Assembly (NCBI RefSeq): GCF_000422545.1
Contig: NZ_AULZ01000020.1
Span: 1 to 64,000, forward strand
Direction: 5' to 3'
DNA from: Desulfocurvibacter africanus subsp. africanus DSM 2603
GTDB taxonomy: Bacteria; Desulfobacterota; Desulfovibrionia; Desulfovibrionales; Desulfovibrionaceae
Length of the DNA stretch: 64,000 bases
Shown one piece after another: positions 33,748 through 50,763 of the stretch (position 1 is the first letter of the stretch; each line of letters starts with the position of its first letter). The notes beneath the pieces were generated by a model that was given only the letters and a program-made list of their open reading frames with translations, was not told the origin of the DNA and made no database searches. A program made the translations under genes and the position numbers.

Positions 33748-33776
33748 GAAATTTGGTGGGGCGGCGTCAATCGAAT
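33748..33776. other. attL: left attachment site of the island
   Basis: Twelve identical bases (GAAATTTGGTGG) match the right border at 45409, where they include the CCA end of tmRNA. The next 17 positions continue to resemble the tmRNA T-arm (CGCCGCC, TTCGATT) with one missing base and two substitutions. This is the displaced partial copy of the ssrA 3' end. Confidence 0.85.
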
Positions 33777-33830
33777 AGAAGCTAGGTAACTCAAGTAGTT
33801 GCTTAATTTTGCCCAATTAGGGTTTTGCTG

Positions 33831-33852
33831 TTACCCCCAGAGTTACCCCCAG
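33831..33852. repeat. Arm-type repeats near attL
   Basis: Two direct copies of TTACCCCCAG at 33831-33840 and 33843-33852, 12 bp apart. The same sequence recurs next to attR at 45240-45311. Matching short repeats on both sides of an attachment site are what tyrosine integrases use as arm-binding sites. Confidence 0.6.
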
Positions 33853-34214
33853 AAAAAAATACTATCCTCCTTTCGCGTATGCATCTGCGTACTGGTGCGC
33901 ACTGCGTACCGCGCAATTTAAACGGACAGATTCTGCACCCCCTCCTGCTGCCGAACCCGCTCGGCCCATGCAATGTCAGCGATCTCGACCGGAGCATTCA
34001 GTTCGGGCTGGGACTGTGGCGGCCCAGGGTGTTATGCACGGTGTCGCCTGGGCGGTTCAGTTGGTTGATGTACTCATTCATGTGGTTATCCGCTGGTCAA
34101 ACGGGAACGGCGGTGGTATGGGGCGTGAAACCAAGTCGCCTTTATCGCGCTCTGGCACCCATGGGCTGCACAGAACGCCTGCGTGCTTTCCTAACCCGTT
34201 ATGGAGGCAAACAC

Positions 34215-34571
34215 ATGGGCTTGTTTAGTTTTCTGTCGGCTCCGCTGAAGATCGAAGAAGTTAAAATGGTACTCATTGGAAAACATGTGTTTAATCGCCT
34301 TTCTGATTACGACAAGAGAGTGGTCACGTTAGCAGCCGAGGATATATTGAGAAGGTGCGGCAGCGGGAAATTTCTAGCGTCTCTGCCGGATGTATCAAGG
34401 TACGCCCTTATATCTCTCGCGCTTGCTGAAATAGGCATAGATCATGGGCTTAATGGATTTCAGTGGATAGCGATTAAGCGCCCGCTTCTTGTACATAGTT
34501 ACGACGAATTTGTTTGGAATACCGCGCGATCAATGGTGCTAAAGGATTTCGCAGTTGAGCCAGAGCTTTGA
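34215..34571 (+). CDS. Island protein of unknown function, 118 residues
   Basis: Started at the ATG at 34215 because TGGAGG lies seven bases upstream; the same frame is open to 33825 but that 390-bp part has no ribosome site and looks non-coding, leaving a long leader or spacer after attL. The protein is mixed charged/hydrophobic with no signal peptide and no domain I recognise. It is transcribed toward the centre of the island, opposite to the replication genes, and ends in its own terminator. This position is typical of satellite cargo. Confidence 0.6.
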   Translation: MGLFSFLSAPLKIEEVKMVLIGKHVFNRLSDYDKRVVTLAAEDILRRCGSGKFLASLPDVSRYALISLALAEIGIDHGLNGFQWIAIKRPLLVHSYDEFVWNTARSMVLKDFAVEPEL

Positions 34572-34588
34572 TCTCGCCCAGCCATGCC

Positions 34589-34617
34589 AAGGCCCGCCCA
34601 TGCGGGCCTTCTTTTTT
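34589..34617 (+). terminator. Intrinsic terminator after the 118-residue cargo gene
   Basis: A 9-bp stem (AAGGCCCGC with GCGGGCCTT), loop CCAT, then a run of seven T. It begins 18 bp after the stop codon of the cargo gene. Confidence 0.92.
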
Positions 34618-34833
34618 TCTTGCCCGCCGCTTGACATCCCGAGCTCCCAGACGTGCAGACTTCCCATGGATGCTGGCGCTCATCGTCACTATGGAGCCTT
34701 CGGGCAGCCGGCGATCTTATTTGATTCATGCTTCCGCAGTTTTTGTTGTATCGCTGGGCTGCCTGTTTCATGCGGTTTCCTCTAGATATTCTATTTTTCT
34801 GATGGTATGCGTGCGGCAAAGGAGCCTAAAGCC

Positions 34834-35370
34834 ATGCGTAGTCGCTTCGTCCTGCTCGCTCTGGTGTTAATGGTTACTGTCTCGGCGTGCGCTGGGATGC
34901 AGCCAAGGCTGTCCACGCGCAGGCTGGGAAACGCTGTTGAAATCAGAAAGAGCGGAGAGAATATCCTTGTTGTCTCTGTGTCCGATTACTACCATTATGA
35001 TTTTTCTGGACCGCTCCCCTATGACAACGAATCCCAATGGTTTGATTACCGTTACAAATCTTCTCCAGACTATCTGCACATTGAGCACATACCCGTAAGC
35101 GTTGCTGCAAAGCAAGCCTTGAATGGTTTTTCTGGCCCATACCATAACTTTCTTCATGGGTGCTCAATCCGCTATACTGTCACCTACAGGGTAGAGGGCA
35201 GCAAGCGCGCTGTACGTGTTACGCTTTCCGTTAAGATGCCCGACGAAGCCGCTTGCGGGGAATGGGACTTCCAGGCCCTTACCCCAGCCCAGAAGCCCCT
35301 TGCAGAAGATGTCGAGCAGCGTATGCATGCAGCCTATTCTGTTGAGGCCAACCGTACCCCGGACGACTAA
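34834..35370 (+). CDS. Island-encoded lipoprotein
   Basis: 178 residues from the ATG at 34834 (AAAGGAG upstream). The signal peptide MRSRFVLLALVLMVTVSAC ends in a lipobox with Cys19, so the product should be an exported lipoprotein. The mature part is rich in Tyr and His with no recognised family. It has its own transcription unit, convergent with the late genes, between the cargo gene and the 465-residue gene. Envelope lipoproteins in phages often alter host receptors (superinfection exclusion); that role is only a suggestion. Confidence 0.7.
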   Translation: MRSRFVLLALVLMVTVSACAGMQPRLSTRRLGNAVEIRKSGENILVVSVSDYYHYDFSGPLPYDNESQWFDYRYKSSPDYLHIEHIPVSVAAKQALNGFSGPYHNFLHGCSIRYTVTYRVEGSKRAVRVTLSVKMPDEAACGEWDFQALTPAQKPLAEDVEQRMHAAYSVEANRTPDD

Positions 35371-35411
35371 AGCCCTCTGCCGTTGCTCATGCCGCCGCCG
35401 AAGCGCCCCCG

Positions 35412-36809
35412 CTAGTAGTTGTTCCCGGCCCCGCCGCGTCCGCCGTTTCCGCCGGCTCCGGTGTTGCCTCCGCCTCCGCTGCTGCGGAAACTTCCTGGTG
35501 TCGTGTTGCCGGTGTAGCTTCTGTTTTTAGCCTCGTTAGACCGAAGCCCGCCATTCCCGCCCGTGCTGATGTGCCCCTTGCTGCCGACGCCGGAAGGTTG
35601 ATACGAGTTCGGGTATTTGCTGGTGGTCTTAGTCGGGGCGGCCTGCTCCGGCTTCTTCTCCTCCTGCTGCTCCTTCTGCCTATTCTCCTGCGTCTGCATG
35701 CGCTCCAGGTTTTCCGCGTGGCTCATCTGGGGATTGTAGTCGTAGTTCGACACGGCCATGTCGGGGGTGCGCTCGTCCATGGCGGTCTCGGCGATGCTCT
35801 CGGCGGGCCGGTCAAAGCTCATGCGCTGATCTTGGGGTGCATCCATCGAAGCAACGTCAAAGCTCATCCTGCGGCCATCATCCACGAAGCTCATGCCGGG
35901 GTCGATGCCAAGCATGGTGTTGAGATCCTGTCTGGCCCGAGCGCCCGCCCTGGCGTCCCTGTCACGCTGGGCGACATCGCTGTCAGAGTCCCTCAGGCCG
36001 ACGGCCTCCAGGGCAGGGTTGATCAGGTACCGCTTAGCCGGGTCGACGACATAGTCATCCACGAAGCCAGTTACCGCCCGCCCAACAGTGGTATCGGCAA
36101 GCTGCTCGGTAAAGGGCCGGCGTTGTCTGTCATATGCGGCGCTGATGTTGAAGCTGTCCATGGCGGCCTGTTCTTGAAGCTCTGGCGCTATGCTGGATAT
36201 ATCGAACCCCTCAATCGGGTCATAGTCAACGCTGTATCTGTCTTCAAACCGGTTGACGCCATACATCTTGTTGAGTTCGGCCAGCGCCTTGGGGCCATAC
36301 TCGTTGAGAGCCGGCGCGGCCATGACGCCCAGGCCGACCGGGTTGGTCAGGCTGCCGAGACCCACCAGGGCATTGCCTGCCGTGCCCAATCCGGCACCGA
36401 TTGCGGCGTTGGTTCCATAGCCGGCAGCCCCGACAGCCGTGCCGGTAATCCCGCCTTGCAGCGCTGCGTCCTTGGCTCGCCCGACGACAGCGCCCTTGGC
36501 TGCATCAATCACCTGCTGCTGCGTCTCAGGGTCCAGCATGGCTTCCTTGTCCACGTTCGCCGGGTTGTAGGTGCTGCCTACGTCGGCCACCGGATCAACG
36601 GCCTGCGTCGGCGTGGCCTGCCTCTGCGGCTGGGTCTGCACGGGGGCGACCTGCACGGGGGATGAGTCGTCGTATGTGTACGGGTCGCTGTAGGGCGAAT
36701 AGATCTTGGCCGCGCCAGGCGTTTCAACATAGCGGCCAGTCGTTGCGCTGCCCTGGGCGGAACGGTTGGAAGTCGGGTTGAATACGCGAGCTGTGGGGCG
36801 TGGTACCAT
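35412..36809 (-). CDS. Glycine-rich island protein of unknown function, 465 residues
   Basis: The start overlaps the upstream small gene as TAATG, with GGAGGA ten bases before it. Regions: a Gln/Pro-rich N-terminus (1-70), a Gly/Ala hydrophobic stretch with repeated GxxxG spacing (about 100-165), a central acidic region, three copies of a MSF(D/V) tetrapeptide (about 285-320), a Gln/Glu-rich coil, and a C-terminal tail that is almost half glycine. No family is recognised. It follows the terminase-like gene, so a virion-associated or DNA-pilot role is possible. It is the longest unknown protein in the window. Confidence 0.75.
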   Translation of the reverse strand: MVPRPTARVFNPTSNRSAQGSATTGRYVETPGAAKIYSPYSDPYTYDDSSPVQVAPVQTQPQRQATPTQAVDPVADVGSTYNPANVDKEAMLDPETQQQVIDAAKGAVVGRAKDAALQGGITGTAVGAAGYGTNAAIGAGLGTAGNALVGLGSLTNPVGLGVMAAPALNEYGPKALAELNKMYGVNRFEDRYSVDYDPIEGFDISSIAPELQEQAAMDSFNISAAYDRQRRPFTEQLADTTVGRAVTGFVDDYVVDPAKRYLINPALEAVGLRDSDSDVAQRDRDARAGARARQDLNTMLGIDPGMSFVDDGRRMSFDVASMDAPQDQRMSFDRPAESIAETAMDERTPDMAVSNYDYNPQMSHAENLERMQTQENRQKEQQEEKKPEQAAPTKTTSKYPNSYQPSGVGSKGHISTGGNGGLRSNEAKNRSYTGNTTPGSFRSSGGGGNTGAGGNGGRGGAGNNY

Positions 36810-36880
36810 TAGAAGAGTCCTCCAAGCTGGCTCAGGCTGGAGCTGAGCGCAAATGTTTTTCGTGCCGTCGTACTACTCAT
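36809..36880 (-). CDS. 23-residue coupled small protein
   Basis: A very short frame, MSSTTARKTFALSSSLSQ then LGGLF. Its ATG overlaps the stop codon of the -1 frame of the terminase-like gene, and its TAA shares one base with the ATG of the 465-residue gene. This exact threading between two genes, plus the fact that the whole island uses overlapping starts, supports translation. Function unknown; it may also serve mainly to couple its neighbours. Confidence 0.5.
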   Translation of the reverse strand: MSSTTARKTFALSSSLSQLGGLF

Positions 36881-37303
36881 TGTCTTGTTCCTGCTTGCCG
36901 TCGATCACGATGGTGAGGCCCAGAGGCAGGAGCGGGGCACCGTCCCTGCCAGTGAGTTCTTGTGCATGGCGCTGCTTGTACTTTTTGGGGAAGTGGCATT
37001 GAGCAGGCAGATTAGGAGCGTGTCGCTGTACTTGCGCACGGTCCCGCACATCTCGCCGCGGTGCCATACGGGCTCATCTACGCCCTCGGCGCCGCGGCGG
37101 CGGGCCTCATCTTCGAGGCGGAAGGCACCGATCTTTGCGGCCTCTTCCCACCGGGCGGCAAACTCTGGCTCCTCGCTCCTCACCTGATAGAGGTAGACGC
37201 GGCTCAAGCCAGCTTGTTCCGCCGCCCGAGTCACGTTCCCGCAGTTGGCCAAATAAGTCAGGAATTGTTCTCGTTTTTCAGGTGTCAGCGAGTTGTCAGC
37301 CAT
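36873..37303 (-). CDS. Terminase small subunit-like protein with apparent -1 frameshift
   Basis: In the zero frame the gene runs 37303-36905 (132 residues). The N-terminal helix-turn-helix (GNVTRAAEQAGLSRVYLYQ) and the downstream RKYSDTLLICLL match phage terminase small subunits that bind cos/pac DNA. After NATSPK the zero frame turns into low-quality sequence, while the -1 frame gives the family-like KKYKQRH and then a tail ending VIDGKQEQDNE at 36873. The shift point is C CCA AAA, a slippery heptamer in the correct phase. So the product may be made by programmed frameshifting, or the gene is mutated. It overlaps the ERCC4 gene by eight bases. Confidence 0.7.
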
Positions 37304-37868
37304 GCGCCTTCGCCCTCATGATTTTTTCCTCCTGTGAAGGTTGAAGTGAACCGTCAGCCCGTGGGCTGGTTTTCGCGTCTTGAGAGTGCTCACATATGCC
37401 AACTGGAGATCCACCATGGGCTTTGATGATGGACCGTAGGCGTTCCTGAGCTTCCCTCAGGTAGTGGCGCAGGAAGTGAAAGACGGCATACTCGGCCCCG
37501 GCCCGATTGCCTGCCCAAAAGAAAGGCGAGCCATGCCGCACCTGGAAGGCCAGGACACTTTGCAAGGCAGCATGGGGCTTCATGCGTGAGCGGTAACGGC
37601 TTTCGGCCAGATCCTGGAATGAGGCCTCCACGACCACGGCGAAGCGATCCAAGGCAGCAGCTCGGGCAAGCTCGCGCTCGAATCGTTCCCGACCCGCCCC
37701 CATGAGGCAGCCGATTAAGTCATCCAGGCTCTTGCGCTCGACGGCCACGCGGTCTTCCAGACCGGCAAGTGAGTAGTCGCCAGTTGCAAGTCCAGCACTG
37801 GCCGTCTCGCACTCGTAGCGGTCGAAGGAGAAGGGGGCTTGCTCTCGGGAGTCCACGAGGATCAGCAT
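37296..37868 (-). CDS. ERCC4-domain nuclease
   Basis: 190 residues from the ATG at 37868, which overlaps the preceding gene by seven bases. The nuclease core is visible at the N-terminus: VDSREQAPF, then GDYSLAGLEDRVAVERKSLDDL, giving the GDxn-ERKx3D metal-binding signature of the XPF/ERCC4 fold. Such enzymes cut branched or forked DNA. In a mobile element it could resolve replication or packaging intermediates made by the adjacent primase-helicase. The C-terminal 60 residues are poorly conserved and polar. Confidence 0.85.
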   Translation of the reverse strand: MLILVDSREQAPFSFDRYECETASAGLATGDYSLAGLEDRVAVERKSLDDLIGCLMGAGRERFERELARAAALDRFAVVVEASFQDLAESRYRSRMKPHAALQSVLAFQVRHGSPFFWAGNRAGAEYAVFHFLRHYLREAQERLRSIIKAHGGSPVGICEHSQDAKTSPRADGSLQPSQEEKIMRAKAHG

Positions 37869-38074
37869 GCGGCCCCCGCCTGTTTCGGTTCCAGCCACTC
37901 CACGGCCGCCCATTTTGGAATGGCCTTGGTCCACTCGAAAGCGTGAGTGCAGTTCTGGCAGGTGAAGAGGAACAGGGTTTCTCCAGTGGGCAAGACGCGC
38001 TCGCCATCCAGAGCAACGGCGTCAACGGCGCATTTGGGGCATATGGGCCACCGCAGGGGGTAAACGACTTTCAT
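37862..38074 (-). CDS. Small zinc-ribbon protein
   Basis: 70 residues with two CxxC pairs (CPKC and CQNC) about 25 residues apart, enough for one zinc ribbon. It overlaps its neighbours on both sides by four and seven bases. It is probably a DNA- or protein-binding accessory of the replication block. No family name can be given. Confidence 0.7.
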   Translation of the reverse strand: MKVVYPLRWPICPKCAVDAVALDGERVLPTGETLFLFTCQNCTHAFEWTKAIPKWAAVEWLEPKQAGAAC

Positions 38075-38484
38075 TCTGTGTGCCGCCAGTTGTTGTGCAG
38101 GACGCGCCCCTTGGTCAGCTCGTGCGCGTGCTCGGCAATCAGGTCCACGGCCTTGAGGAAGTAGCCTTGCACCATGATCCGCTCGGACGGCGTGAATTGC
38201 TCGGGATAGACCAACGTGAATTGCGGTTCAGGGCTCACGGCGTAGAAGTGCAGCTTGAGCCCTTCGGCTCGGTATGCGTCCAGGCACCACAGCAGGCGAT
38301 CGAGGTCATAGTGAGCGTCGGCCTTGTCCTGCGAAATTGTCCGGGTCATCAAAAATGCGCTGGACACGTCGGACACATCGGACGGGCCATTGCCATTCCT
38401 TGCTTCCGGGCTGTCCGACGGTATTTCAGACACGTCGGACACGTCGGACACGGGCTTGCGCTTGAACAGATTTATCCAGGACAT
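38071..38484 (-). CDS. Island protein with SDV repeats
   Basis: 137 residues from the ATG at 38484 (GAGGG upstream), four bases after the primase-helicase stop. The N-terminal third holds two runs SDVSDVS, encoded by tandem 9-bp repeats that also occur inside the primase gene in the opposite orientation. The C-terminal part (DLDRLLWCLDAYRAEGLKLHFYAV) looks globular (part quoted). Function unknown. Confidence 0.65.
   Translation of the reverse strand: MSWINLFKRKPVSDVSDVSEIPSDSPEARNGNGPSDVSDVSSAFLMTRTISQDKADAHYDLDRLLWCLDAYRAEGLKLHFYAVSPEPQFTLVYPEQFTPSERIMVQGYFLKAVDLIAEHAHELTKGRVLHNNWRHTE
38362..38450. repeat. 9-bp iteron-like repeat cluster, right-facing set
   Basis: Copies of CGTCGGACA or close variants at 38367-38375, 38376-38384, 38433-38441 and 38442-38450, with an inverted copy TGTCCGACG at 38412-38420. 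They are in the coding region of the SDV-repeat protein. Confidence 0.6.
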
Positions 38485-38488
38485 GCGC

Positions 38489-41194
38489 TTAGCCCTCCTG
38501 CCCATCCGGCAGGGCCACGACATAGCAGCGCTGCCGCCCAAGACCTGGGAGTTGAACCCTTGCGCGCAGGCCCCGTTCATTGGTCCGCAGCCATCCCGCT
38601 CGCTGCAACACCTTGGCGGCTCGGTTTACGTCATGGCCGCGTAGGACTTCAGCATCAAAGACGCTCGGCAAGAAAATGAACTCATGCCCGCCCGGCGTCT
38701 TGCGTCGGAATCCGGCCCGGTTGATGCATTTTTCCGCATTGGCTTTGCCTTCCTCATCAAGGTCTTGGAAGCGGGCCGCGCCATGCTGCTCAAGGAACAA
38801 GCGGACAACGGTCAGGATCGCCCGATCCTCGGAAGCCCCGGCCCCGCCCCTTCCTGCTATCCACTCGTCAAGGCAGCGCTTAGCAGCCTCCAGGGCTTCG
38901 CCGGCCCGCCAGGGCAGGATGCCCCATTCAGCAGCCATTTCGCCGGCCACGGCGCACAGAGCAAAGCGAGCGGCCACGCGACGGACCTGACCATCGGCGT
39001 CAGCTGGGCAGGCTCCGTCTACAAAGGCCGGGATTGCCTCCAAGACACCGGTGCGGACTTGGTCCATCTCGGAGGCCATGCGCGCAACAAAAGCCCTGAA
39101 GGCATGCCCATAATGTGTGACAGCGGCCCGCTTGATGCTGTCGGCAAACAGGGTAGGTGAGGCATGACCATGAAGATCCTCGAAGAGTCCCAGTCCCTTG
39201 CCCGCATCGGCCTGAACGTCCACAAGGCGGACCTCTTGGCCGGCTTTGATAGATCGCCCGGTCTCTTCGGCAATCTTCGCGGCGAGCCCGATTTCTCCAC
39301 TCGAGAGCACCAGCGTTCGCCATGTGGCCGGCATCCTGTGCGAGCCGTCGCGGGACGCTCGAGACTTGCCGGACCCGTTTGCAAGCATGTAAGCTGCTTC
39401 GCTCACTGCCCGGGCATCAGCTTGGCCCAGCTCATCCAGACACAAAAGCGAATCGCAATGCATAGCGGCCAGACCTTCAAGGCCATTGGCCGTGGCTCGC
39501 CAGTTGCGGACATAACCGCCGATGCCTCCGCCCCCGCAAGCTGAGCCAGCCGCATGCAGCGCGGTTGATTTGCCGGTGGAGCTCCCGCCGACAAAGTTGA
39601 AGCCGCCGCTTTCCTGGCCGGCTATTTCAAGCAGAGCCGCGGCGAAGGCCGTGCATACCGCAAGCACAAGACGCGAATTGCCAGTTGCCCATGTGCCGAT
39701 AGTCGTTTGCCAGCCCTCCAGCGTTCCGCCTGTGCGGTATATGCCTTCAGCTCCTTCGCGCTGGAGGACAACCAATTCGCTTGAGTTGCCGACAGCGCTG
39801 TCGGGCAGCACGAAAAGGCCATTTTGCCAGCCTGTCCGGTTCACACAGCGCACGCGGTCTTTCGGCCTCGACGTGGCCAGGTAGGTTGCAACACCCTGGC
39901 GCGCCTTCTTGCCTGGCGCTCCAGTCCATCCCCCATCAGCAAGAGAGGAGTGCCACCCAGAATCATCCCGCGAGAGCATGGACAGGGGCATGGCCCAGCG
40001 GTGGACATGGCCATCAGGGTCGCGCCATTGGACATATAGCCCCCAGGCCGCGCCGTCGGTATCTCTGGTCATGCCCAGCACATCTAGACAGGGGCCAAGC
40101 CACACTTGCTGCACTGCGCCTTCCTGGTCTTCCTCCAGGCGGAATAGGCCAGCCTCATTGTTCAAAAAGCCCTTGGGAACGGCCACTGACGCGGCTTTGT
40201 CCGACGTGTCCGGCTGCCCATTTCCAGTGTCGGACAGCCCCTTTCCATTGGGAGAGTAGGCGTTGTCCGACATGTCCGACGTGTCCAACGGTTTTGCATC
40301 AACAAGGCAACGGCGCACGACTTCCGGTCCTTCGGCCTGGTGCAGGTCATTGAAGTCTGTTCCGCGATTGGCCGACTCGGAGAAGGTGGGCACGGCCATA
40401 AGCCCGCCCACGGCACTGGCTGCCTCGCGGGACTTTGTCAGGCCGGGATTGCCCTGCGTGGCGTGGTCATCGTCAGCGCACAAGATGATTTGCCGCTCAG
40501 GGTAGCGGTTCCGCGCAACCTGGGCCACGGCTTTTAGATTACCGCAGTTGAAGGCAGCCAAGACGGTCCCGTCAGTGACAACGTGGATGCTTGCAGCGGT
40601 AGCGTAGCCCTCGCAGATGTAGAGCGGTCCGTCGGCTCCCCTGATGGCGAAGTAGCCGCCGGCAGTCTTGCCTCCGGCCAGGAACATCTTGCCACCATCA
40701 GCATCAATGAATTGAACAGATTGCGGTTTGCCGTCCGGACCGAGGACCGGGATTACAAGCCGGCCATCCCTGGCGAGCTTAGCACCGGAATGAGCGGGAA
40801 CGCCCTTGCGTTTCAAGTATGGGTGGCCATCCGTTGCGGGTTCGGCTGACTCAAGGATGCATCTGGCCCGCTCCGCTGCTTCGGCGTGGCGTCGAACCTC
40901 TTCGGCCTCCCGGGCCTTGCGATCCGTCTTGATACGGGTCTTGATTCGTTCCCGCTCGGCTGGCGATAGGTCGCGGTCCGCCTTAGCTGTCCACGTTCCA
41001 GATTCTCCCGTTCTCCAGTCGCCATAGGCGCCAGATGCCGGGATATCAGCATGAAGCACATACCAGCCATTCTTCGAGACGGGTTTATCAGCGGTCCCAC
41101 AGCGATGGAGGTTGCCATCAGAGATGATCTCTTCGCCGGGCGCCAGGCCAGCGTTCTCCATACAACGGCGGAAGTCCGTGGTGATGTCGCTCAT
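38489..41194 (-). CDS. TOPRIM/DUF927 primase-helicase
   Basis: 901 residues. The N-terminal half is primase-like: KNGWYVLHADIPASGAYGDW resembles the P4-type N-domain, and TOPRIM follows with LYICEGYATAAS (about 191-202) and the acidic CADDDH (239-244). A Ser/Asp-rich linker (302-335) leads to a DUF927 ATPase with Walker A VGGSSTGKST (535-544) and Walker B LLCLDELGQ. Such proteins start replication of satellites and integrative elements. It overlaps the gene before it by four bases. No zinc-finger primase motif is visible. Confidence 0.88.
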   Translation of the reverse strand: MSDITTDFRRCMENAGLAPGEEIISDGNLHRCGTADKPVSKNGWYVLHADIPASGAYGDWRTGESGTWTAKADRDLSPAERERIKTRIKTDRKAREAEEVRRHAEAAERARCILESAEPATDGHPYLKRKGVPAHSGAKLARDGRLVIPVLGPDGKPQSVQFIDADGGKMFLAGGKTAGGYFAIRGADGPLYICEGYATAASIHVVTDGTVLAAFNCGNLKAVAQVARNRYPERQIILCADDDHATQGNPGLTKSREAASAVGGLMAVPTFSESANRGTDFNDLHQAEGPEVVRRCLVDAKPLDTSDMSDNAYSPNGKGLSDTGNGQPDTSDKAASVAVPKGFLNNEAGLFRLEEDQEGAVQQVWLGPCLDVLGMTRDTDGAAWGLYVQWRDPDGHVHRWAMPLSMLSRDDSGWHSSLADGGWTGAPGKKARQGVATYLATSRPKDRVRCVNRTGWQNGLFVLPDSAVGNSSELVVLQREGAEGIYRTGGTLEGWQTTIGTWATGNSRLVLAVCTAFAAALLEIAGQESGGFNFVGGSSTGKSTALHAAGSACGGGGIGGYVRNWRATANGLEGLAAMHCDSLLCLDELGQADARAVSEAAYMLANGSGKSRASRDGSHRMPATWRTLVLSSGEIGLAAKIAEETGRSIKAGQEVRLVDVQADAGKGLGLFEDLHGHASPTLFADSIKRAAVTHYGHAFRAFVARMASEMDQVRTGVLEAIPAFVDGACPADADGQVRRVAARFALCAVAGEMAAEWGILPWRAGEALEAAKRCLDEWIAGRGGAGASEDRAILTVVRLFLEQHGAARFQDLDEEGKANAEKCINRAGFRRKTPGGHEFIFLPSVFDAEVLRGHDVNRAAKVLQRAGWLRTNERGLRARVQLPGLGRQRCYVVALPDGQEG
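40198..40290. repeat. 9-bp iteron-like repeat cluster inside the primase gene
   Basis: Copies of TGTCCGACG or one-base variants at 40198-40206, 40207-40215, 40264-40272, 40273-40281 and 40282-40290, with one inverted copy at 40228-40236. The same 9-mer forms the cluster at 38362-38450. Confidence 0.6.
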
Positions 41195-41418
41195 TCCTCG
41201 GCCTCCAGAGAGTCGAGATAGAGCGACAGACGACGATTCCAGGGCCAGCCCGCCACGGCGAGCGCGTCCACGAGATTGTTTGCGATGTCCCGCCTATAAC
41301 CGCGGCTCTTTGGGCTGGCAGGAATCGTTTGCGCGCTTGCGGCATCGGCATGGCGCCGGGCTGTATGCTCCAAGATGAGTTTATCTTGATTTCTGACGAG
41401 AAAGGGCAGGGGCATCAA
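41191..41418 (-). CDS. Small island protein before the primase gene
   Basis: 75 residues, basic and alpha-helical in character, overlapping the next gene by four bases at its end and the previous one by four bases at its start. No domain is recognised. The coupling to the primase-helicase suggests a replication accessory. Confidence 0.6.
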   Translation of the reverse strand: MMPLPFLVRNQDKLILEHTARRHADAASAQTIPASPKSRGYRRDIANNLVDALAVAGWPWNRRLSLYLDSLEAEE

Positions 41419-41660
41419 ATCACCCCCTCATCTTTCGCTAGGGCCATGCACACCAGACAGAACCGCCCAAAGACTATCGTCACCTGTCCTTGTTCTTCGG
41501 TGGGCTCTACAGCAAGAAGGACTGTCGCGTGCGCCGGGCCATTGCAGTTCGAGCATGGCGCGTCATCGAGGCTCCGCACAAACCGGTTCAACTCGGTTGC
41601 CTCAGAAGGCATGAGGTCGAGCGGAGCCTGGTAGCGGTAGCAAGCCAATAGTTTTTTCAT
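41415..41660 (-). CDS. Small Cys-rich island protein
   Basis: 81 residues with CSNC in the middle and CLVC near the end, spaced about 33 residues apart, consistent with one zinc site. Four-base overlaps with both neighbours. Family unknown. Confidence 0.6.
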   Translation of the reverse strand: MKKLLACYRYQAPLDLMPSEATELNRFVRSLDDAPCSNCNGPAHATVLLAVEPTEEQGQVTIVFGRFCLVCMALAKDEGVI

Positions 41661-41983
41661 GCCACGCCCTCCCCATGTAGAACATACCGAGCCACGCGGT
41701 GTGGCTTTCCCTCAGGGGTTATGTCCTCTGTCCAGTGCGTGACGATCCGATAGCCCGCCCGACGCAGCTCCATAACGCGAGCTGCAGGGTGCAGCACGTC
41801 CAGAAGTCGGCGCGCCTCCAGGGTGGTCAAACTCGCACTATACAGGTGTTCGAGAATGCGGGTGCGCTGCGCTTCGGAAGAGTTGTCGTCCTTGCCTTCG
41901 GGGCCGGAAGCATATACAGAATTGGTGCCGCCAATTTGTACGCCCCGGTTGTCCGTCAAGGCTTCCGGGGTCTTACTTTTCAT
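41657..41983 (-). CDS. Winged-helix-like island protein
   Basis: 108 residues. The C-terminal 65 residues (TRILEHL, TTLEARRLLDVLHPAARV, ELRRAGYRIVTHWTED) fit the helix-turn-helix proteins common in prophages and satellites, in which LHPAARVxELR is the recognition helix. Likely a DNA-binding regulator or replication accessory. It overlaps the AlpA-like gene by 11 bases. Confidence 0.7.
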   Translation of the reverse strand: MKSKTPEALTDNRGVQIGGTNSVYASGPEGKDDNSSEAQRTRILEHLYSASLTTLEARRLLDVLHPAARVMELRRAGYRIVTHWTEDITPEGKPHRVARYVLHGEGVA

Positions 41984-42209
41984 CTGCGCCCCCCGACAGG
42001 TTTTCGACCAATCGTCGGATGTCTTCGGCGCGCCAGGCTGTCGTACGTGGTCCGAGCTTTACGGGCTTTGGGTAGCGACCGGACGCAACGCCAGCCCACC
42101 AAGCGGATCTGGAAACAGGAATGATCGGCGGGATGCCGCGCTTTGCATCACCCACGATCTGCCGGGCTCTGACAAAGCCATCCTTGGGAAGGGAATGCAG
42201 GTTGGACAT
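41973..42209 (-). CDS. AlpA-type transcriptional regulator
   Basis: 78 residues from the ATG at 42209; AAGGAG lies five bases upstream, within the second arm of a 12-bp hairpin. The body (FVRARQIVG, PVSRSAWWAGVASGRYPKPVKLGPRTTAWR) is the compact winged helix of AlpA/Vis regulators, which switch satellites such as P4 between silent and active states and may act as excisionases. The longer frame to 42245 would include the hairpin and lacks a ribosome site. Confidence 0.85.
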   Translation of the reverse strand: MSNLHSLPKDGFVRARQIVGDAKRGIPPIIPVSRSAWWAGVASGRYPKPVKLGPRTTAWRAEDIRRLVENLSGGADEK

Positions 42210-42214
42210 AAAGG

Positions 42215-42310
42215 CTCCTTGGTTAGCCGTTACTGGACTAACCAAGGAGTAGTTACTACCGGCTGTGGTAGTCGCTGGTACTTCTGGTAGTGCGAATGGT
42301 AAAAACGGTA
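42215..42310 (-). promoter_or_regulatory. AlpA leader hairpin and GGTA operator-like array
   Basis: A 12-bp inverted repeat (42215-42226 with 42238-42249, 11-bp loop) contains the AAGGAG ribosome site of the AlpA-like gene in its proximal arm. Just upstream, TGGTA or CGGTA recurs at 42266, 42276, 42285, 42297 and 42306, spaced 9-12 bp, about one helical turn apart. Confidence 0.6.
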
Positions 42311-42330
42311 GGCGTTGCGTAAAACTTTAG

Positions 42331-42954
42331 CTAGGCAGCCTCGGGTCTCAACATGGATTCATGTTTCTTGCGGAGCTCGCGCGTGTATTGCCTAGCGCGT
42401 TCGGGTCCTATGCTCTTATCATCATGAAGCAACCAGCCAATCTTCTTCTGTTGCTTTGGAAAAGACTTATTCAGGACCCATGCTTGTTCTGGCAACCCAC
42501 AGCCATTTTCCCTCAAACTGGTCGCCAATTCCTCCAGGCTTACTTGGGGAGTAGCGGCTAGGGTGGTCGATCTCGTTGGCGGTATCTCTTCTTGCACTTC
42601 TCGTGGTACATCCGTTTCATTGACATGCTGATTGGCAAAATTGGATTGTACAAAAGCTTCAACATCCTTTCTCGAAAATCGGAGATGCAAAGCAAAAGCT
42701 AAAGTAATTCTTTCATCTATAAGGCCTTTGCAGGTATCTTCTCCATATATTGGCTCAAGACAAGAGCCGCCAATTTCCTTCTCCTTCCAACTACGAGTAA
42801 GCTTGGCATATCTCTTGACTTCTTTATATGAGTTGAACTTGTTAAACCCTTCTTTGATTGGAAGAAGCTCCTCCTTAATTATCAACTCGCGAAGAGTTTC
42901 TGCATTGATTCCCAATCGCGCCACAAGCTCCTTGCCGGTGAACTGTAATTGCAT
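42331..42954 (-). CDS. Putative DNA-binding island protein, A/T-rich
   Basis: 207 residues from the ATG at 42954 (232 if started at 43029; neither start is well marked). The N-terminus (GKELVARLGINAETLRELI, then FNSYKEVKRY) resembles an excisionase/MerR-type helix-turn-helix, and SRKDVEAFVQSN resembles a second. The codon use is A/T-richer than in the rest of the island, suggesting separate acquisition. Function not established; a repressor is possible given its place between integrase-side genes and alpA. Confidence 0.55.
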   Translation of the reverse strand: MQLQFTGKELVARLGINAETLRELIIKEELLPIKEGFNKFNSYKEVKRYAKLTRSWKEKEIGGSCLEPIYGEDTCKGLIDERITLAFALHLRFSRKDVEAFVQSNFANQHVNETDVPREVQEEIPPTRSTTLAATPQVSLEELATSLRENGCGLPEQAWVLNKSFPKQQKKIGWLLHDDKSIGPERARQYTRELRKKHESMLRPEAA

Positions 42955-43198
42955 GAGGTTCCCTGCCTGCGCTCCCAAGATTATCCAGCCAAGGCGGCGG
43001 GAGTACCGCCCTTTCGACATAGGTAGCAATCTACATCTAGGCCGGGAGATGGAGGGGCGTTATCTTGCCATCTCGGTTGACCGAGGATGACTTATTAAGC
43101 CCAATACGTAGTAAATAATTGCAGAACAGGTGAGAGCTCGTCAATTCTTTTGGGCTGGCAGCCACGCAGCGCGCCTTCCCTGGCAGGCTGCGCGTAAG

Positions 43199-43498
43199 CT
43201 ATTTCTTGCGCCTGCCCGCTATCAACTCCTCAACCATGCTTGTCATGGCGAGCAGTTCCTTGCGCGCTGAGTCATGAAGCACCTGGCCCACTCGACAGAC
43301 ACTATGAAGGTCGGGATTGTCTGCTCCATGTTCACCAGCGGTGCGGCCGGCAAGCAAAAATAGGTCATCGATTGGCCCCAGGGCATTGTCTATGCTGTCA
43401 TTAAGCAAGCTGACGATAAGTTCGCGAAGGCTCACGGCCCGGACAGCTTCGGCCATGTCGCTTATTTCGCCTGAGATGGCGGCTTGGATCTCAGACAT
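43199..43498 (-). CDS. Island protein of unknown function, 99 residues
   Basis: Started at the ATG at 43498, eight bases inside the preceding gene. The protein is helical, with AVRAVSLRELIVSLLNDSIDNALGPIDDLFLLAG in the middle (part: SLRELIVSLLNDSIDN). No domain recognised. Confidence 0.6.
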   Translation of the reverse strand: MSEIQAAISGEISDMAEAVRAVSLRELIVSLLNDSIDNALGPIDDLFLLAGRTAGEHGADNPDLHSVCRVGQVLHDSARKELLAMTSMVEELIAGRRKK

Positions 43499-43901
43499 AG
43501 TGGGCCTCTTTCTCCAGCAGGAGGACGGGCTCCTGTCTGCCGCCCTTATTGCGAAACACCTGCACTCCGATGCAATCACCAGCCACACGAGCCTTCCGGC
43601 ATTCCTTACCCCAGGTGAAGCGATCAATTCTGATAGTGCCGAAATGTCGCTCAATCAGGTTGAAATTCTCCACCATCTCGCGCTTGGCATTTTTCAGAAG
43701 CTCAAGGCCAATGTCGGCAATCATCATCTTTTCGGGACCGGCACAGTCGGAAGTCATCTCGAGGAAGCCTTCAAGACGGCCGATGGCTTGAAACATAATA
43801 TCCTCTAGGCAGGTGGAAAACGTGGAGAGATCTCGAAAGCCTGGAATAACTGGAGCGGGTTGCAAAGCCTGGTCGCGGTAGATAAGGGATTGCTCAGCCA
43901 T
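43491..43901 (-). CDS. Island protein of unknown function, 136 residues
   Basis: A soluble, helical protein with a single Trp-Gly-Lys-Glu-Cys patch (FTWGKECRKARVAGDCIGVQVF) toward the C-terminus, shown in part. It is coupled to the 99-residue gene by an eight-base overlap and starts after an AGGAGGAAC site. No domain recognised. Confidence 0.65.
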   Translation of the reverse strand: MAEQSLIYRDQALQPAPVIPGFRDLSTFSTCLEDIMFQAIGRLEGFLEMTSDCAGPEKMMIADIGLELLKNAKREMVENFNLIERHFGTIRIDRFTWGKECRKARVAGDCIGVQVFRNKGGRQEPVLLLEKEAHYV

Positions 43902-44012
43902 GGCCGTTCCTCCTGTTCAGGACGGTTGTGGTTAGGTCCGGTCTTTGGTGCTGGTAACACCTGGCCGGACCGCTTTCTATGCGCTGCCCGATTGATTCGG
44001 GCGGATCGCCAT

Positions 44013-45221
44013 CTAAGCCACTTGGCCGGTGCGGAAGGGAATGATCTTCGTCCCTGAGCGTAGCGCGTCCAAGTAATCACTCCAACTCTGCATCATCCTC
44101 CGGCGCTCGGGCAGAAACTCAGCATAGTTGTAGGCGGCGCGGACTGAATTGCGCTCGGCATGGGCAAGCTGGCGCTCAATTGCGTCACGGTTCCAGCCCT
44201 GTTCATTCAGAATGGTGGACGCCATGGAGCGGAAGCCGTGGCCGGTCATTTCGTCCTTGGAGTAGCCCAGGCGGCGAAGAGCGGCGTTAACCGTGTTCTC
44301 GCTCATGGGCCGGGCGCTGGTCCGCACGCTCGGGAAGAGGTACTTGCCCTGGCCAGTCAGTGCATGAAGTTCGCGCATGATCTCCACGGCTTGTTTGGAG
44401 AGGGGAACGATATGCATCGTGCGCGCTTTCATCTTCTCGGCAGGGATGCGCCATTCGGCATGGTCAAGGTCGATCTCGGACCACTCGGCATGGCGAAGCT
44501 CGCCGGGCCGGACAAAGACCAGCGGAGCTAGGCGCAAGGCGCAGCGCGTGACAAAAGAGCCCTCATAGTCATCGATGTCGCGCAGGAGAGCGGCAACGGC
44601 TTTGGGGTCCGTCAGGCTGGCATGGTGCTTTTCTTCGGAAGGGGGGAGGGCGCCGCGCAAATCGCCGGACGGATCACGTTCGGCCCGGCCGCATGCGACG
44701 GCATAGCGGAAGATTTGGCCGCAGTTCTGCAGGGCACGGTGGGCAGTCTCGACAGCCCCGCGTGTCTCGATGCGGCGGATTACCGCCAATAGGTCAGGTG
44801 CGGATATGGTTTTGATCGGCCGGGAGCCCAGCCAGGGGAAGATATTCTGTTCAAGGCGGCGAAGAATGCGCATAGCATGAGAGTCGGACCAGGAGGGCTT
44901 GAACTTGTCGTACCATTCACGGGCCACTTCCTCGAAGCTGTCCGCTTGGCTGTTCTTCTCCGCCTTGCGCGTCTCGCTCGGGTCAATGCCATTGGCGAGC
45001 AGCTTCCGGGCTTCGTCGCGGCGCTCTCGGGCCTCCTTCAAGCTCACATCGGGATAGACGCCGAGGGAAAGAAGTTTTTCCTTGCCCTTAAAGCGATACT
45101 TGAAACGCCACCATTTCCCCCCGCTGGGGGTAACAAGCAGGAACATACCCCCACCATCGGATAACTTGCGGGGCTTGGACTCGGGCTTGGCATTGCGGAC
45201 GGACGTATCGGATAGCGGCAT
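44013..45221 (-). CDS. int: P4-type tyrosine integrase
   Basis: 402 residues. The N-terminal arm-binding domain has the P4-integrase pattern KLSDGGGMFLLVTPSGGKWW and YPDVSLKEARERRDEARKLL. The catalytic residues can be followed: Arg in RPGELRHAEW, HGFRSMAST (HxxR), LAHAERNSVRAAYNYAEF (His and the nucleophilic Tyr). It lies 188 bp from the right att site, in the standard position beside the intact tmRNA gene, and catalyses integration and excision there. Confidence 0.95.
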   Translation of the reverse strand: MPLSDTSVRNAKPESKPRKLSDGGGMFLLVTPSGGKWWRFKYRFKGKEKLLSLGVYPDVSLKEARERRDEARKLLANGIDPSETRKAEKNSQADSFEEVAREWYDKFKPSWSDSHAMRILRRLEQNIFPWLGSRPIKTISAPDLLAVIRRIETRGAVETAHRALQNCGQIFRYAVACGRAERDPSGDLRGALPPSEEKHHASLTDPKAVAALLRDIDDYEGSFVTRCALRLAPLVFVRPGELRHAEWSEIDLDHAEWRIPAEKMKARTMHIVPLSKQAVEIMRELHALTGQGKYLFPSVRTSARPMSENTVNAALRRLGYSKDEMTGHGFRSMASTILNEQGWNRDAIERQLAHAERNSVRAAYNYAEFLPERRRMMQSWSDYLDALRSGTKIIPFRTGQVA

Positions 45222-45239
45222 AGCGGGGGCTCCAAGACG

Positions 45240-45311
45240 TGTGGGGGTAACTCAAGCGTTTTTTTGCGCTTCGAAGCTCGCCTACCCCCATGCTTACCCC
45301 CAGTTACCCCC
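45240..45311. repeat. Arm-type repeats near attR
   Basis: TACCCCC-type sites at 45283-45289, 45294-45301 and 45304-45311 on the plus strand and a reverse copy GTGGGGGTAA at 45241-45250. They match the TTACCCCCAG pair beside attL. The last two are spaced 10 bp apart. Confidence 0.6.
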
Positions 45312-45361
45312 GGATGTCAAAAGACGAGACTGGACTATGCCGGACACTAGAAAGCAGAAAA

Positions 45362-45378
45362 GCCCGCTATTTGCGGGC
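45362..45378 (-). terminator. Island-supplied terminator for ssrA
   Basis: A 6-bp GC stem (GCCCGC with GCGGGC), extended by weaker A-T pairs, and a 5-nt loop, followed on the leftward strand by TTTTCTG. It is 37 bp beyond the tmRNA 3' end, inside the island. Confidence 0.75.
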
Positions 45379-45408
45379 CTTTCTGATTCCATTGGACTTG
45401 GTGGGATA

Positions 45409-45437
45409 GAAATTTGGTGGAGGCGGCGGGAATCGAA
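45409..45437. other. attR: right attachment site at the ssrA 3' end
   Basis: Contains the 12-bp core GAAATTTGGTGG identical to attL and continues into the tmRNA acceptor stem and T-arm (GGCGGCGGGAATCGAAC). The tmRNA gene remains complete because the crossover lies in its last bases. Confidence 0.85.
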
Positions 45438-45766
45438 CCCGCGTCCGAGAACGCTTAGCTCATGGCATCTACAGGCTTAGTTCAGGTTTTATTTAACCGA
45501 AGGAACGCCCCTGAACGGGCTTTTCTTCTGGTGAGTCCGCAAAAGTTCTCGCGCTCGGCGTCACGGACACCGCGTTGCGCCAGTCTGATGTTTTGGCACT
45601 TCGACCCGGCGTATCAGACATCTGCCGGCGAAGCGCTGGCTAGCTAAGCTGCCAGGGAGTAATTGTAATCGTTGGCGATTATTCAGTTGCCGCTTTTTAC
45701 GAGGCCAGCGGCTCCTCGGCCTGCAACCAAGGCTTCGACTATCCCCGTCGAAACCAGTGCGCCCCC
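45415..45766 (-). ncRNA. ssrA: tmRNA
   Basis: The 5' end GGGGGCGCACTGG and the 3' end, reading CGCCTCCACCA on the leftward strand, pair into the tRNA-like acceptor stem, and GTTCGATTC is the T-arm. Length is 352 nt. The tag frame (45644-45676) reads ANDYNYSLAA-stop, ending in the usual hydrophobic ..LAA degron. tmRNA with SmpB rescues ribosomes stalled on broken mRNA and tags the product for proteolysis. The first tag codon is GCC. The gene is intact despite the island in its 3' end. Confidence 0.96.
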
Positions 45767-46407: not shown

Positions 46408-46569
46408 ATTTAGATCTCCGGGGCAGAGAGCAGGTTAAGGATACTTCCATGTTGAAATTTCTACATCTCCCGGGAGAATTCTGGCAAGGATAATCAGCCG
46501 AATGCAGGTATAGAACAGAGATCAGAGTCAGGGGTGGTCCCGATTGTCTGGACAGGTCGGCGGCAGAAA

Positions 46570-46697
46570 TAGAGCATTTTGCTTTTGAAAATGCTCTGCA
46601 AGCCATGCGTCGGCATGGCTTGCCGCCGCGTAGGCGTAGGCGCAATTCACTTGCGCCGTCAACGCCGGAGCGGGCGTCTTAAAAGCAAGCTGCTCTA
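46570..46697 (-). repeat. MITE-like palindromic repeat, copy 3
   Basis: A 128-bp copy in inverted orientation relative to copies 1, 2 and 4. Ends are TAGAGCA at the left and TGCTCTA at the right. It borders the IS3-family relic on its downstream side. Confidence 0.87.
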
Positions 46698-47320
46698 AGA
46701 TGTAGCCAGTTTGCTTGTCACGCCGCCAGGCGGGATGGTGACATGCCCGGAGCATTCCCCGGTCCAGGCAATAACGCCTCCGCATATACATCGTCGGGAG
46801 TTCCGCCATCCAGACTGGAGTTGGGATGATTGGAATTCTAGCAGACAAGCCCCTTGCCGATTTCCAGCCGGGCCTGGCTGCCCCTTTTGAAGGCATGCAG
46901 GTAAACGCACTTGTACGTGAGCGAGTGCCACAGCCGCTCGACTATGGCGTTGTCCATCCACCGGCCTGTCCCGTCCATGGGAGACCCTGACTCCGGCATT
47001 CTTTAGCGTTTGGGTCAATCAAGGCTCGTGAATTGGCTGTCTTGGTCGGTGTTGAAGATCTCGGCTAAAAATCTCGTTCGACCGCAAGCTGGCCGATCTT
47101 GGCATGCAGTTCCTTGACCTCGGCCTCCCGAAAGCTGCTCGCCATATCGGGCTTGCCGGCGAAAGCTACCGTCAGCCCTTCAATGGACTGCTTTCTCCAC
47201 TGCGCACCTGGTTCGGATGCACGCCAAATCTTAATGCAAGCTGGGCTAGCGTCTCGTCCCACTTGATGGCCTTTTGGCGACCTTGGCCTTGAACTCTGCC
47301 GAATACCGTGTCCTCTGCTC
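46698..47320 (-). pseudogene. IS3-family transposase relic, internally deleted
   Basis: Read leftward, an orfA start (RTRYSAEFKAKVA, then AIKWDETLAQLALRFGVHPNQV) is followed by AQWRKQSIEGLT and ELHAKIGQLAVERDF in other frames, then directly by orfB C-terminal parts: FNTDQDSQFTSLD, DGTGRWMDNAIVERLWHSLTYK and NSSLDGGTPDDVYAEAL. The middle of orfB, with its first catalytic residues, is gone, and at least four frameshifts are needed. This relic cannot move itself. MITE copies flank it on both sides. Confidence 0.85.
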
Positions 47321-47448
47321 TTAAGCATTTTGCATTTCAGACGCTCCCTTCGGCGTTGACGGCGGAATTACATTCCGCCTACGCCTGCGGGGCGGCAAGC
47401 CATGCCGACGCATGGCTTGCAGAGCATTTTCAAAAGCAAAATGCTCTA
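47321..47448 (+). repeat. MITE-like palindromic repeat, copy 4 (divergent)
   Basis: 128 bp, in forward orientation. Its left half is the most changed (TTAAGCATTTTGCATTT, TTCGGCGTTGACGGCGGAATTACATTCCGCC), with GGCGGAA/TTCCGCC replacing the usual GCGCAA/TTGCGC stem, again preserving pairing. The right half is nearly identical to copy 1. It starts immediately at the broken orfA end of the IS3 relic. Confidence 0.8.
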
Positions 47449-47590
47449 AAGCTGTCTCCTCTCGTTCATCGGCTACACCTTACAGGCCTGTCTGAATTTG
47501 GGGGGACCGCCTCTGGCTTCCTTGGGCAAGAGCATAAGCGACTCTCAGGTGTTTAACACCGAGAGCATATGGTTCTCGTAAAGGTTATCA

Positions 47591-50483: not shown

Positions 50484-50589
50484 GATCGCCTCCGCTCTAT
50501 TCAAGTGAGGTTCTGAGTGTGACGGCCTGGTGCGAGCATACCCGATCTGTCAGATCAGGTAAAAAGAACGTTTCATTTCCTTCTCGAGT

Positions 50590-50718
50590 TAGAGCATTTT
50601 GCTTTTGAAAATGCTCTGCAAGCCATGCGTTGGCATGGCTTACCGCTAGCTTTGGCGTAGGCGCAATTCACTTGCGCCGTCAACGCCGGAGCGGGCGTCT
50701 TAAAAGCAATCTGCTCTA
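50590..50718 (-). repeat. MITE-like palindromic repeat, copy 5
   Basis: A 129-bp copy in the same orientation as copy 3, ends TAGAGCA and TGCTCTA. The inner stem is partly changed (TACCGCTAGCTTTGGCG instead of GCCGCCGCGTAGGCG). It separates the aldolase promoter region from the 3' end of the rhodanese gene. Confidence 0.85.
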
Positions 50719-50763
50719 AGTGCCTTGGAAATCTTTAACATCGACAACTCGGGTATCAGCCGG

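Follow-up and report, generated by a model that had tools for sequence, protein, structure and literature searches.

The 3' end of ssrA in Desulfocurvibacter africanus subsp. africanus DSM 2603 is occupied by an 11.7-kb island flanked by a 28-nt imperfect repeat. On balance, we favour reading it as an integrated PICI-like island of the phage-satellite type, belonging to a family present in several Desulfovibrionaceae, in which the packaging gene has decayed and whose group recruits podophage DNA-ejection genes. The features of the island are collected in Table 1; the window is the whole 64,000-nucleotide stretch of DNA that was analysed.

Table 1. Features of the ssrA island, in window coordinates
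Feature	Position	Strand	Remarks
Left attachment repeat	33748..33775	-	imperfect direct copy of ssrA 3' end
118-aa ORF	34215..34571	+	ORF only
Lipoprotein-like gene	34807..35370	+	without recognised family
p465	35412..36809	-	intact frame; paralogue of C40 prophage morphogenesis-module gene
Recombination scar, 23-codon ORF	36809..36880	-	between TerS and p465
terS, phrog_4044 family, frameshifted	36905..37303	-	frame A ends here; phrog_4044 1.3e-29
ERCC4-type nuclease	37296..37934	-	PF02732 2.4e-13, phrog_3490 3.7e-24
70-aa ORF	37862..38074	-	ORF only
169-aa ORF	38071..38580	-	homologue on C15, 52% over 147 aa
Toprim + DUF927 primase-helicase	38489..41194	-	PF06048 8.6e-75, phrog_1139 9.6e-109
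75-aa ORF	41191..41418	-	ORF only
81-aa ORF	41415..41660	-	without family in Pfam/PHROG matches
Winged helix-turn-helix protein (HTH_39)	41657..41983	-	PF14090 6.2e-21
AlpA-type regulator (Phage_AlpA)	41973..42245	-	PF05930 6.3e-05, above its cut-off
232-aa protein, weak HTH_17	42331..43029	-	below cut-off
136-aa ORF	43491..43901	-	without Pfam family; best PHROG 0.081
Tyrosine integrase with arm-binding domain	44013..45221	-	PF22022, PF13356, PF00589
Right attachment repeat, at ssrA 3' end	45409..45437	-	gapped alignment
ssrA (tmRNA)	45415..45766	-	tag ANDYNYSLAA

Insertion into ssrA, proposed by an earlier sequence-only reading, is borne out by the repeat: in gapped alignment the left copy matches the ssrA 3' end with a score of 41, whereas none of 200 shuffles exceeded 32, and contains an exact 12-bp core, CCACCAAATTTC. 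An ungapped 32-nt scan for the left repeat did no better than shuffles. The gene to the left of the island is present in 95 of 199 genomes; ssrA did not lie within ~1.5 kb of it in the 19 loci scanned, so that a search for empty sites through this gene is uninformative. No near match of the whole island was found in phage records or in plasmid records.

Pfam and PHROG matches recover every component that reading had listed (integrase, AlpA regulator, primase-helicase, nuclease and a TerS-family gene). The island thus has the integrase (Pfam domains) and own attachment site (gapped repeat alignment) of a PICI, together with a regulator of the AlpA/MerR/Stl type two or three ORFs from int and a primase/replication module (DUF927 plus Toprim). 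Remnants of large terminase, portal or capsid genes inside the borders had been named as grounds for abandoning the satellite interpretation; no TerL, portal or major capsid family was detected among the proteins scanned there. Yet p465 is homologous to a prophage morphogenesis-module gene. The homologue of the 169-aa ORF occupies the equivalent position in a second relic, on C15.

Gram-negative PICIs such as EcCICFT073 (PMC6092414) resemble the island in having int at one end, AlpA, a primase/replication gene, an optional TerS, an own attachment site and no detectable capsid gene. The window island differs in its ERCC4 nuclease after the primase, its ssrA site, its frameshifted TerS and the podophage virion-module gene aboard. 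The main text of that paper contains no word beginning Desulfo. P4-like satellites, as generally known and as described in part in PMC6092414, likewise combine an integrase, an AlpA-like regulator and a primase-helicase; unlike them, the island has TerS, and no Sid, Psu or Delta family is among the matches listed. Pseudomonas phage phiAH14b (KU708005; 16.8 kb) has a 46% identical integrase, AlpA and a two-part primase/helicase matching that of the window, followed by an annotated tail assembly protein I and a lipoprotein; no capsid gene is annotated. Unlike the window island, it gave no ERCC4 or TerS match.

Other Desulfovibrionaceae have compact islands at tRNA genes with the order int-AlpA-primase-ERCC4, in some of them followed by a TerS-like gene. 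Among 62 genome loci with ERCC4, eight also have the window-type int, AlpA and primase, and three more lack AlpA only. We found no capsid genes in these related islands, several of which lie on short contigs, with room for such genes beyond the contig ends. Attachment repeats of at least 22 bp delimit five of them: L127 (39 bp, span 9.2 kb), L115 (32 bp, span 11.4 kb, inside two tRNA-Leu copies), L062 (28 bp, span 17.0 kb), L114 (22-23 bp, span 9.2-9.5 kb) and G139 (44 bp, span 20.4 kb). No repeat of at least 13 bp was found in 10 of 16 loci tested and merely 13-14 bp in 2 of the 16; none was found at L133. Close relatives of the window primase were not confirmed in genome_contigs or viral_contigs.

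Islands unrelated to phages can have integrases, AlpA and DUF927 primases too. Hence the element might be an integrative genomic island that does not parasitize phages, carrying TerS and p465 as hitch-hiking debris, and several related islands whose scanned genes gave no terminase match (L127, L119/L066 and L064) fit this explanation. We consider it quite improbable, as TerS-like genes of different families recur after ERCC4 in the window, L137 (phrog_51, Terminase_2) and L141 (phrog_51). DUF5681-type genes, whose products may act as TerS, come after ERCC4 as well in L115, where the match exceeds the Pfam cut-off, in L087, where it stays below, and in G139 and L133 (common PHROG matches and inspection by eye); in L062 such a gene comes after the primase. 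When 74 proteins from seven islands were scanned, the matches listed named a single terminase family, that of the TerS in the window.

The terminase small subunit claimed by the sequence-only reading is right as to family, and its frame is broken after about residue 106. Frame A matches intact TerS only to about residue 106-107, the 20 listed of 89 phage matches all ending at residue 106 or 110, and the C-terminal block runs on in frame B (36873-37067). The sequence at the frameshift is CCCCAAAAAG. Given this break, the packaging step has probably been lost in the island copy, which is likely to remain stranded in the absence of a helper that provides TerS or a common packaging site; the window copy is probably inactive. 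Conceivably, an error in the assembly or programmed slippage accounts for the frameshift, and the satellite is intact with a functional TerS. The C-terminal block kept recognisable in frame B (a 22-residue match at 45%) and the open state of the other core genes, p465 included, agree with this. We regard it as unlikely: against it are set the reading of the frameshift in one assembly of one genome and the result of the following terminase search.

A co-resident prophage with a matching large terminase, which the same reading had proposed to look for, did not emerge. A phrog_2 profile search of the genome returned four TerL-like places, of which one is weak (2e-5). L070, the nearest relative of the TerS, lies in a phage module with TerL and a major head protein; since the matches of that TerL do not include phrog_2, phrog_38 was searched separately. 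No TerL of the phrog_38 type, to which the TerL next to the closest intact TerS belongs, was detected in the host genome.

Between TerS and p465 lies a recombination scar. Its ORF begins at the stop codon of TerS frame B, and its last codons are those of the gene located just before the p465 paralogue on C40; DNA homology to C40 extends past the p465 start by 42 bp on the upstream side and stops at 36851. Over 469 aligned positions p465, a full-length paralogue, is 50% identical to the C40 gene in the same genome (dN 0.40, dS 1.17). The signal region of the neighbouring lipoprotein-like gene resembles that of a lipoprotein-like gene beside the paralogue (29 residues, 66%; 78% over 125 bp of DNA). 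The C40 module is interrupted, with connector to ejection genes at 184.7-196.6 kb, capsid and portal at 234.3-239.3 kb and TerL at 254.5-256.1 kb; from gene order and strand we infer a single prophage. The best family match of p465 is weak (phrog_1533, 4e-4), phage records gave no match, and no close relatives were confirmed in viral_contigs with single-sequence and two-row alignment queries. Its AlphaFold2 model has a mean pLDDT of 37 and no usable fold, and we read p465 as an ejection protein solely because of gene position.

TerS, scar and p465 form virion-gene remnants in phage order, as in a defective prophage. A single deletion could have removed everything from terL through the gene before p465 from a temperate podophage, with terS decaying by frameshift afterwards, and the window copy would never have had a satellite cycle. 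The scar, linking the end of TerS to the last codons of one virion-module gene and then to an intact one, fits such a deletion, as do the terS frameshift, the phage module around L070, and IMG/VR phages with ERCC4 a few kb before a TerL (L086 and L088 by tblastn; L084 and L085, which by eye have a capsid-like gene). ERCC4 occurs in phages, and L087, as seen by eye, adjoins tape-measure-like genes on the opposite strand; a full phage with the int-AlpA-DUF927-ERCC4 set was not seen. We hold the deletion origin possible but doubtful. The early-module backbone is common to compact islands at different tRNA genes. Neither the window-type primase nor ERCC4 occurs in the available DNA of the eight TerS loci examined, of which L070 and L075 have DNA reaching just 2-4 kb upstream of TerS. 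Moreover, two Fundidesulfovibrio islands (L133 and G139) keep the same gene order although their two long proteins are only 33-49% identical, and no capsid gene was found in either. The satellite-like class proposed earlier is supported by the backbone shared with compact tRNA-linked islands in which no capsid gene was found. The argument that a lone TerS redirects helper packaging is unsupported for the window copy, because its TerS carries a frameshift, the genome gave no phrog_38-type TerL and the scar fits a prophage deletion.

For the favoured satellite-type island, a cycle can be proposed from gene content. A helper podophage would switch on AlpA, the integrase would cut the island out of ssrA, the DUF927 primase-helicase would replicate it, the ERCC4 nuclease might process replicating DNA or helper DNA, and TerS would steer packaging into helper capsids. 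In this scheme a podophage akin to the C40 prophage would be the source of p465, and the p465 protein would act as a virion (ejection) protein provided by the satellite.

In L133 and G139 the two long proteins (592 and 760 aa in L133) form a virion-type cassette, which comes after ERCC4, a DUF5681-type gene and a small gene. In G139 the first of them has an internal-virion-protein transglycosylase domain (phrog_342, 8e-21); in L133 the same domain is indicated by T7-like phage matches over residues 114-245. No relatives of these virion-type proteins were found in viral_contigs, and the model of the 760-aa L133 protein reached a mean pLDDT of 37, too low for a fold search. The domain is shared with the T7-type internal virion (ejection) proteins gp14/15/16, which, as PMC8954989 describes, belong to a full virion module in phages, whereas in L133 and G139 it follows a TerS-like gene and no capsid gene was found. 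The window island and these two relatives seem to carry genes from the DNA-delivery machinery of short-tailed phages; we found no description of this arrangement in the literature.

Satellites are known to reshape the capsids of their helpers, to supply capsids themselves or to divert packaging. We tentatively suggest that podophage satellites of sulfate reducers carry their own DNA-ejection proteins beside TerS, loading helper-built particles with satellite injection machinery, which may suit a small satellite genome or a different host envelope. If so, such satellites would exploit the helper at another point, by replacing its DNA-delivery proteins, and satellite host range could be decoupled from that of the helper. 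Through relatives with open TerS-like genes (L115, G139, L133 and L137), satellite biology in Desulfovibrionaceae can be tested directly.

Opposite ssrA, the other end of the island carries a copy of the gene's 3' end (28 nt, one gap), whose alignment scores 41 against a maximum of 32 in 200 shuffles. GC content of the island is 0.585 versus 0.586 and 0.579 for its flanks, the left end and the 42-44 kb stretch being richer in AT (genome, 4.4 Mb in 40 contigs; window, C16:1-64000). The integrase, AlpA regulator, primase-helicase, nuclease and small terminase (TerS) listed in the sequence-only reading agree with family matches. The window also contains a ~130-bp interspersed repeat in both orientations; by eye it is MITE-like, and pieces of its reading frame turn up in ORFs of other contigs.

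By its sequence, the window terS is a broken gene. Its frame A can be aligned to intact relatives only up to about residue 107 (identity 55% to L070 and L073, 48-51% to L074 and L075, 44% to L072), and the C-terminal block carries on in frame B, with 45% identity over 22 residues to L070, the closest intact relative. Phage records matching the window TerS number 89, and the best 20 all stop at residue 106 or 110 of 132. The genome contains phrog_4044 only as the window copy, read with an internal stop. In known TerS proteins, contact with the packaging motor is made by the C-terminal part; hence, with the match lost after about residue 107 and the block displaced to frame B, the motor-contacting part would be changed.

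The gene following terS, p465, has one strong relative among 288 family genomes, a paralogue on contig C40 of the same genome (50-54% identity); the other match, in G236, is weak (2.1e-4). Neither a search of 50,697 phage records nor a pattern search of IMG/VR yielded a relative. Window-C40 DNA homology continues upstream beyond the p465 start for 42 bp, into the terminal 3' part of the phage gene before it; it stops at 36851, 21 bp past the TerS frame-B stop. At the TerS stop, an ATG starts a short ORF of 23 codons, which ends with the C-terminus of the C40 gene that precedes the paralogue; according to ORF calls, in L070 and L073 the TerL start overlaps the TerS stop. Judged from these sequences, the TerS-p465 junction is a recombination scar, in which, taken alone, deletion and capture look alike. 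The two paralogues (dN 0.40, dS 1.17, both lineages pooled) show divergence indicative of purifying selection over both lineages together.

The genes around the C40 paralogue make up a module that includes a head structural protein (phrog_399, 3e-17) and a protein with weak virion-RNA-polymerase similarity (phrog_2206, 9e-8). TerL (phrog_979), portal (phrog_156) and major head protein (phrog_9953) genes lie on the same strand, separated from this module by other genes. The region resembles a prophage of short-tailed type into which ~36 kb of other genes seem to be interposed; by eye, large repeat-rich, secreted-looking genes form a run between TerL and portal.

Primase matches at 1e-20 occur in 152 of the 288 family genomes; many of these matches are partial, and the primase domains are widespread. 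Compact loci combine integrase, AlpA, primase and ERCC4, and the ERCC4 alignment as query recovered 62 genome and 32 IMG/VR loci. Window-type integrase, AlpA and primase accompany ERCC4 at eight of the 62 (near-twins L137 and L138 among them), and three more lack AlpA only. A narrow query panel gave no TerL, portal or capsid match at the 62 genome loci; TerL matched at three of the 32 viral loci (L086, L088, L102), and viral loci L084 and L085 are phage-like by eye. Scanning 74 proteins encoded by seven islands gave matches to 65 families. TerL, portal and capsid families are absent from the best 25, while the other 40 matched one protein each at E-values >1e-12, where a weak match could hide. 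In nine relatives, no phrog_2 TerL was found in the 60 kb around the island on its own contig; most TerL matches sit on other contigs, phrog_2 misses the L070-type TerL, and in genomes G046, G108 and G158 the island is on contigs of 4-11 kb, too short to show a distance. Attachment repeats of at least 22 bp were found for L127, L115, L062, L114 and G139 (44 bp of tRNA-Arg); among 16 loci tested together, 10 had none of at least 13 bp and two only 13-14 bp. By eye, the satellite-like island of L087 has tape-measure-like genes next to it, encoded on the other strand.

Tail/virion names among the best 25 families belong to long proteins of L133 (Fundidesulfovibrio agrisoli) and G139, of the same genus group. 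L133 runs integrase, regulators, primase, ERCC4, DUF5681, a 77-aa gene, 592-aa and 760-aa proteins and a regulator, beyond which the chromosome resumes (by eye); an attachment repeat was looked for and not found. The order is repeated in G139, where a DnaB-type helicase replaces the primase; aligned between the two islands, ERCC4 shows 76% identity and the long proteins 33% and 49%. The first long protein carries an internal-virion-protein transglycosylase domain, recognised in G139 by phrog_342 (8e-21) and in L133 by matches of residues 114-245 to T7-like phages (364 records). The pair profile also matches an L070 phage-module protein located after a 213-aa gene (1.9e-9), which may reflect the transglycosylase domain alone. 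The second long protein matched no family and no phage record; of 348 genomes in the order, 2 have it. Virion-type genes thus adjoin a TerS-like gene in two lineages, that of the window island and that of Fundidesulfovibrio; a capsid gene was found in neither. Domain and position, the latter by comparison with the operon layout of internal virion (ejection) proteins in an excerpt of PMC8954989, suggest a putative role in DNA ejection. An excerpt of PMC7290940 describes the phage 80alpha ejection protein gp44 as dispensable for SaPI transduction, which speaks against a general requirement for ejection proteins of this sort; according to its authors, the satellite tested, which was packaged in large capsids, may be unrepresentative. 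Among matches listed (titles and abstract openings, subscription literature mostly outside), no description of satellites in sulfate reducers or of satellite-borne ejection proteins was found.

A search of the genome for a helper's TerL of the phrog_38 type, which adjoins L070 TerS, found none; phrog_2 TerL-like places exist on C40 (two), C3 and C11 (weak). Since other phrog_4044 loci have different TerL genes (by eye), TerS and TerL types are not necessarily linked, and a helper is still conceivable. A second relic with the same backbone (primase part 77%, ERCC4 75%) adjoins transposase-like genes on C15; it also holds a 169-aa homologue, and a CBASS-type nucleotidyltransferase-like gene is nearby (by eye).

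Genes after ERCC4 vary. A Terminase_2/phrog_51 protein is found in L137 (likewise by eye in L138) and a phrog_51 protein in L141. DUF5681-type proteins follow in L115, where the match exceeds the Pfam cut-off, in L087 and L126, where it does not, in L123 and G139, which share PHROG families with these, and in L133 (by eye). L128 has a weak phrog_57 match, L113 and L114 a 262-aa protein of no assigned family, and the genes scanned in L127, L119/L066 and L064 no terminase match. By eye, a small coiled-coil-like gene comes directly next to the DUF5681-type gene, on its downstream side, in four islands. The DUF5681 gene of L062 comes after primase. PADLOC hits on the related islands are to PbeA, PbeC, DndD and methyltransferase, and its output does not name the members; placed by content, the Pbe/Dnd hits suggest a Pbe/Dnd-like defence cluster in L062.

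Coordinates of features in the window, its genome and related islands
Feature	Location	Strand	Remark
ssrA	window 45415-45766	-	
ssrA 3'-end copy	window 33748-33775		
~130-bp repeat	window 46559-46699; 47324-47459; 50589-50720		
p465 paralogue	C40:188110-189525		
TerL, portal, major head protein	C40:234-256 kb		
Apparent split prophage	C40:184754-262929		L006, L014-L016
Second relic, backbone	C15:74863-78911		
Second relic, extended	C15:71153-78911		L059
Satellite-like island beside tape-measure-like genes	L087:8865-10162		by eye
Small coiled-coil-like gene	L115:10946-11176; L126:11194-11424; L133:11039-11272; L178:12779-13015		by eye
Putative Pbe/Dnd-like cluster	L062:482-7650
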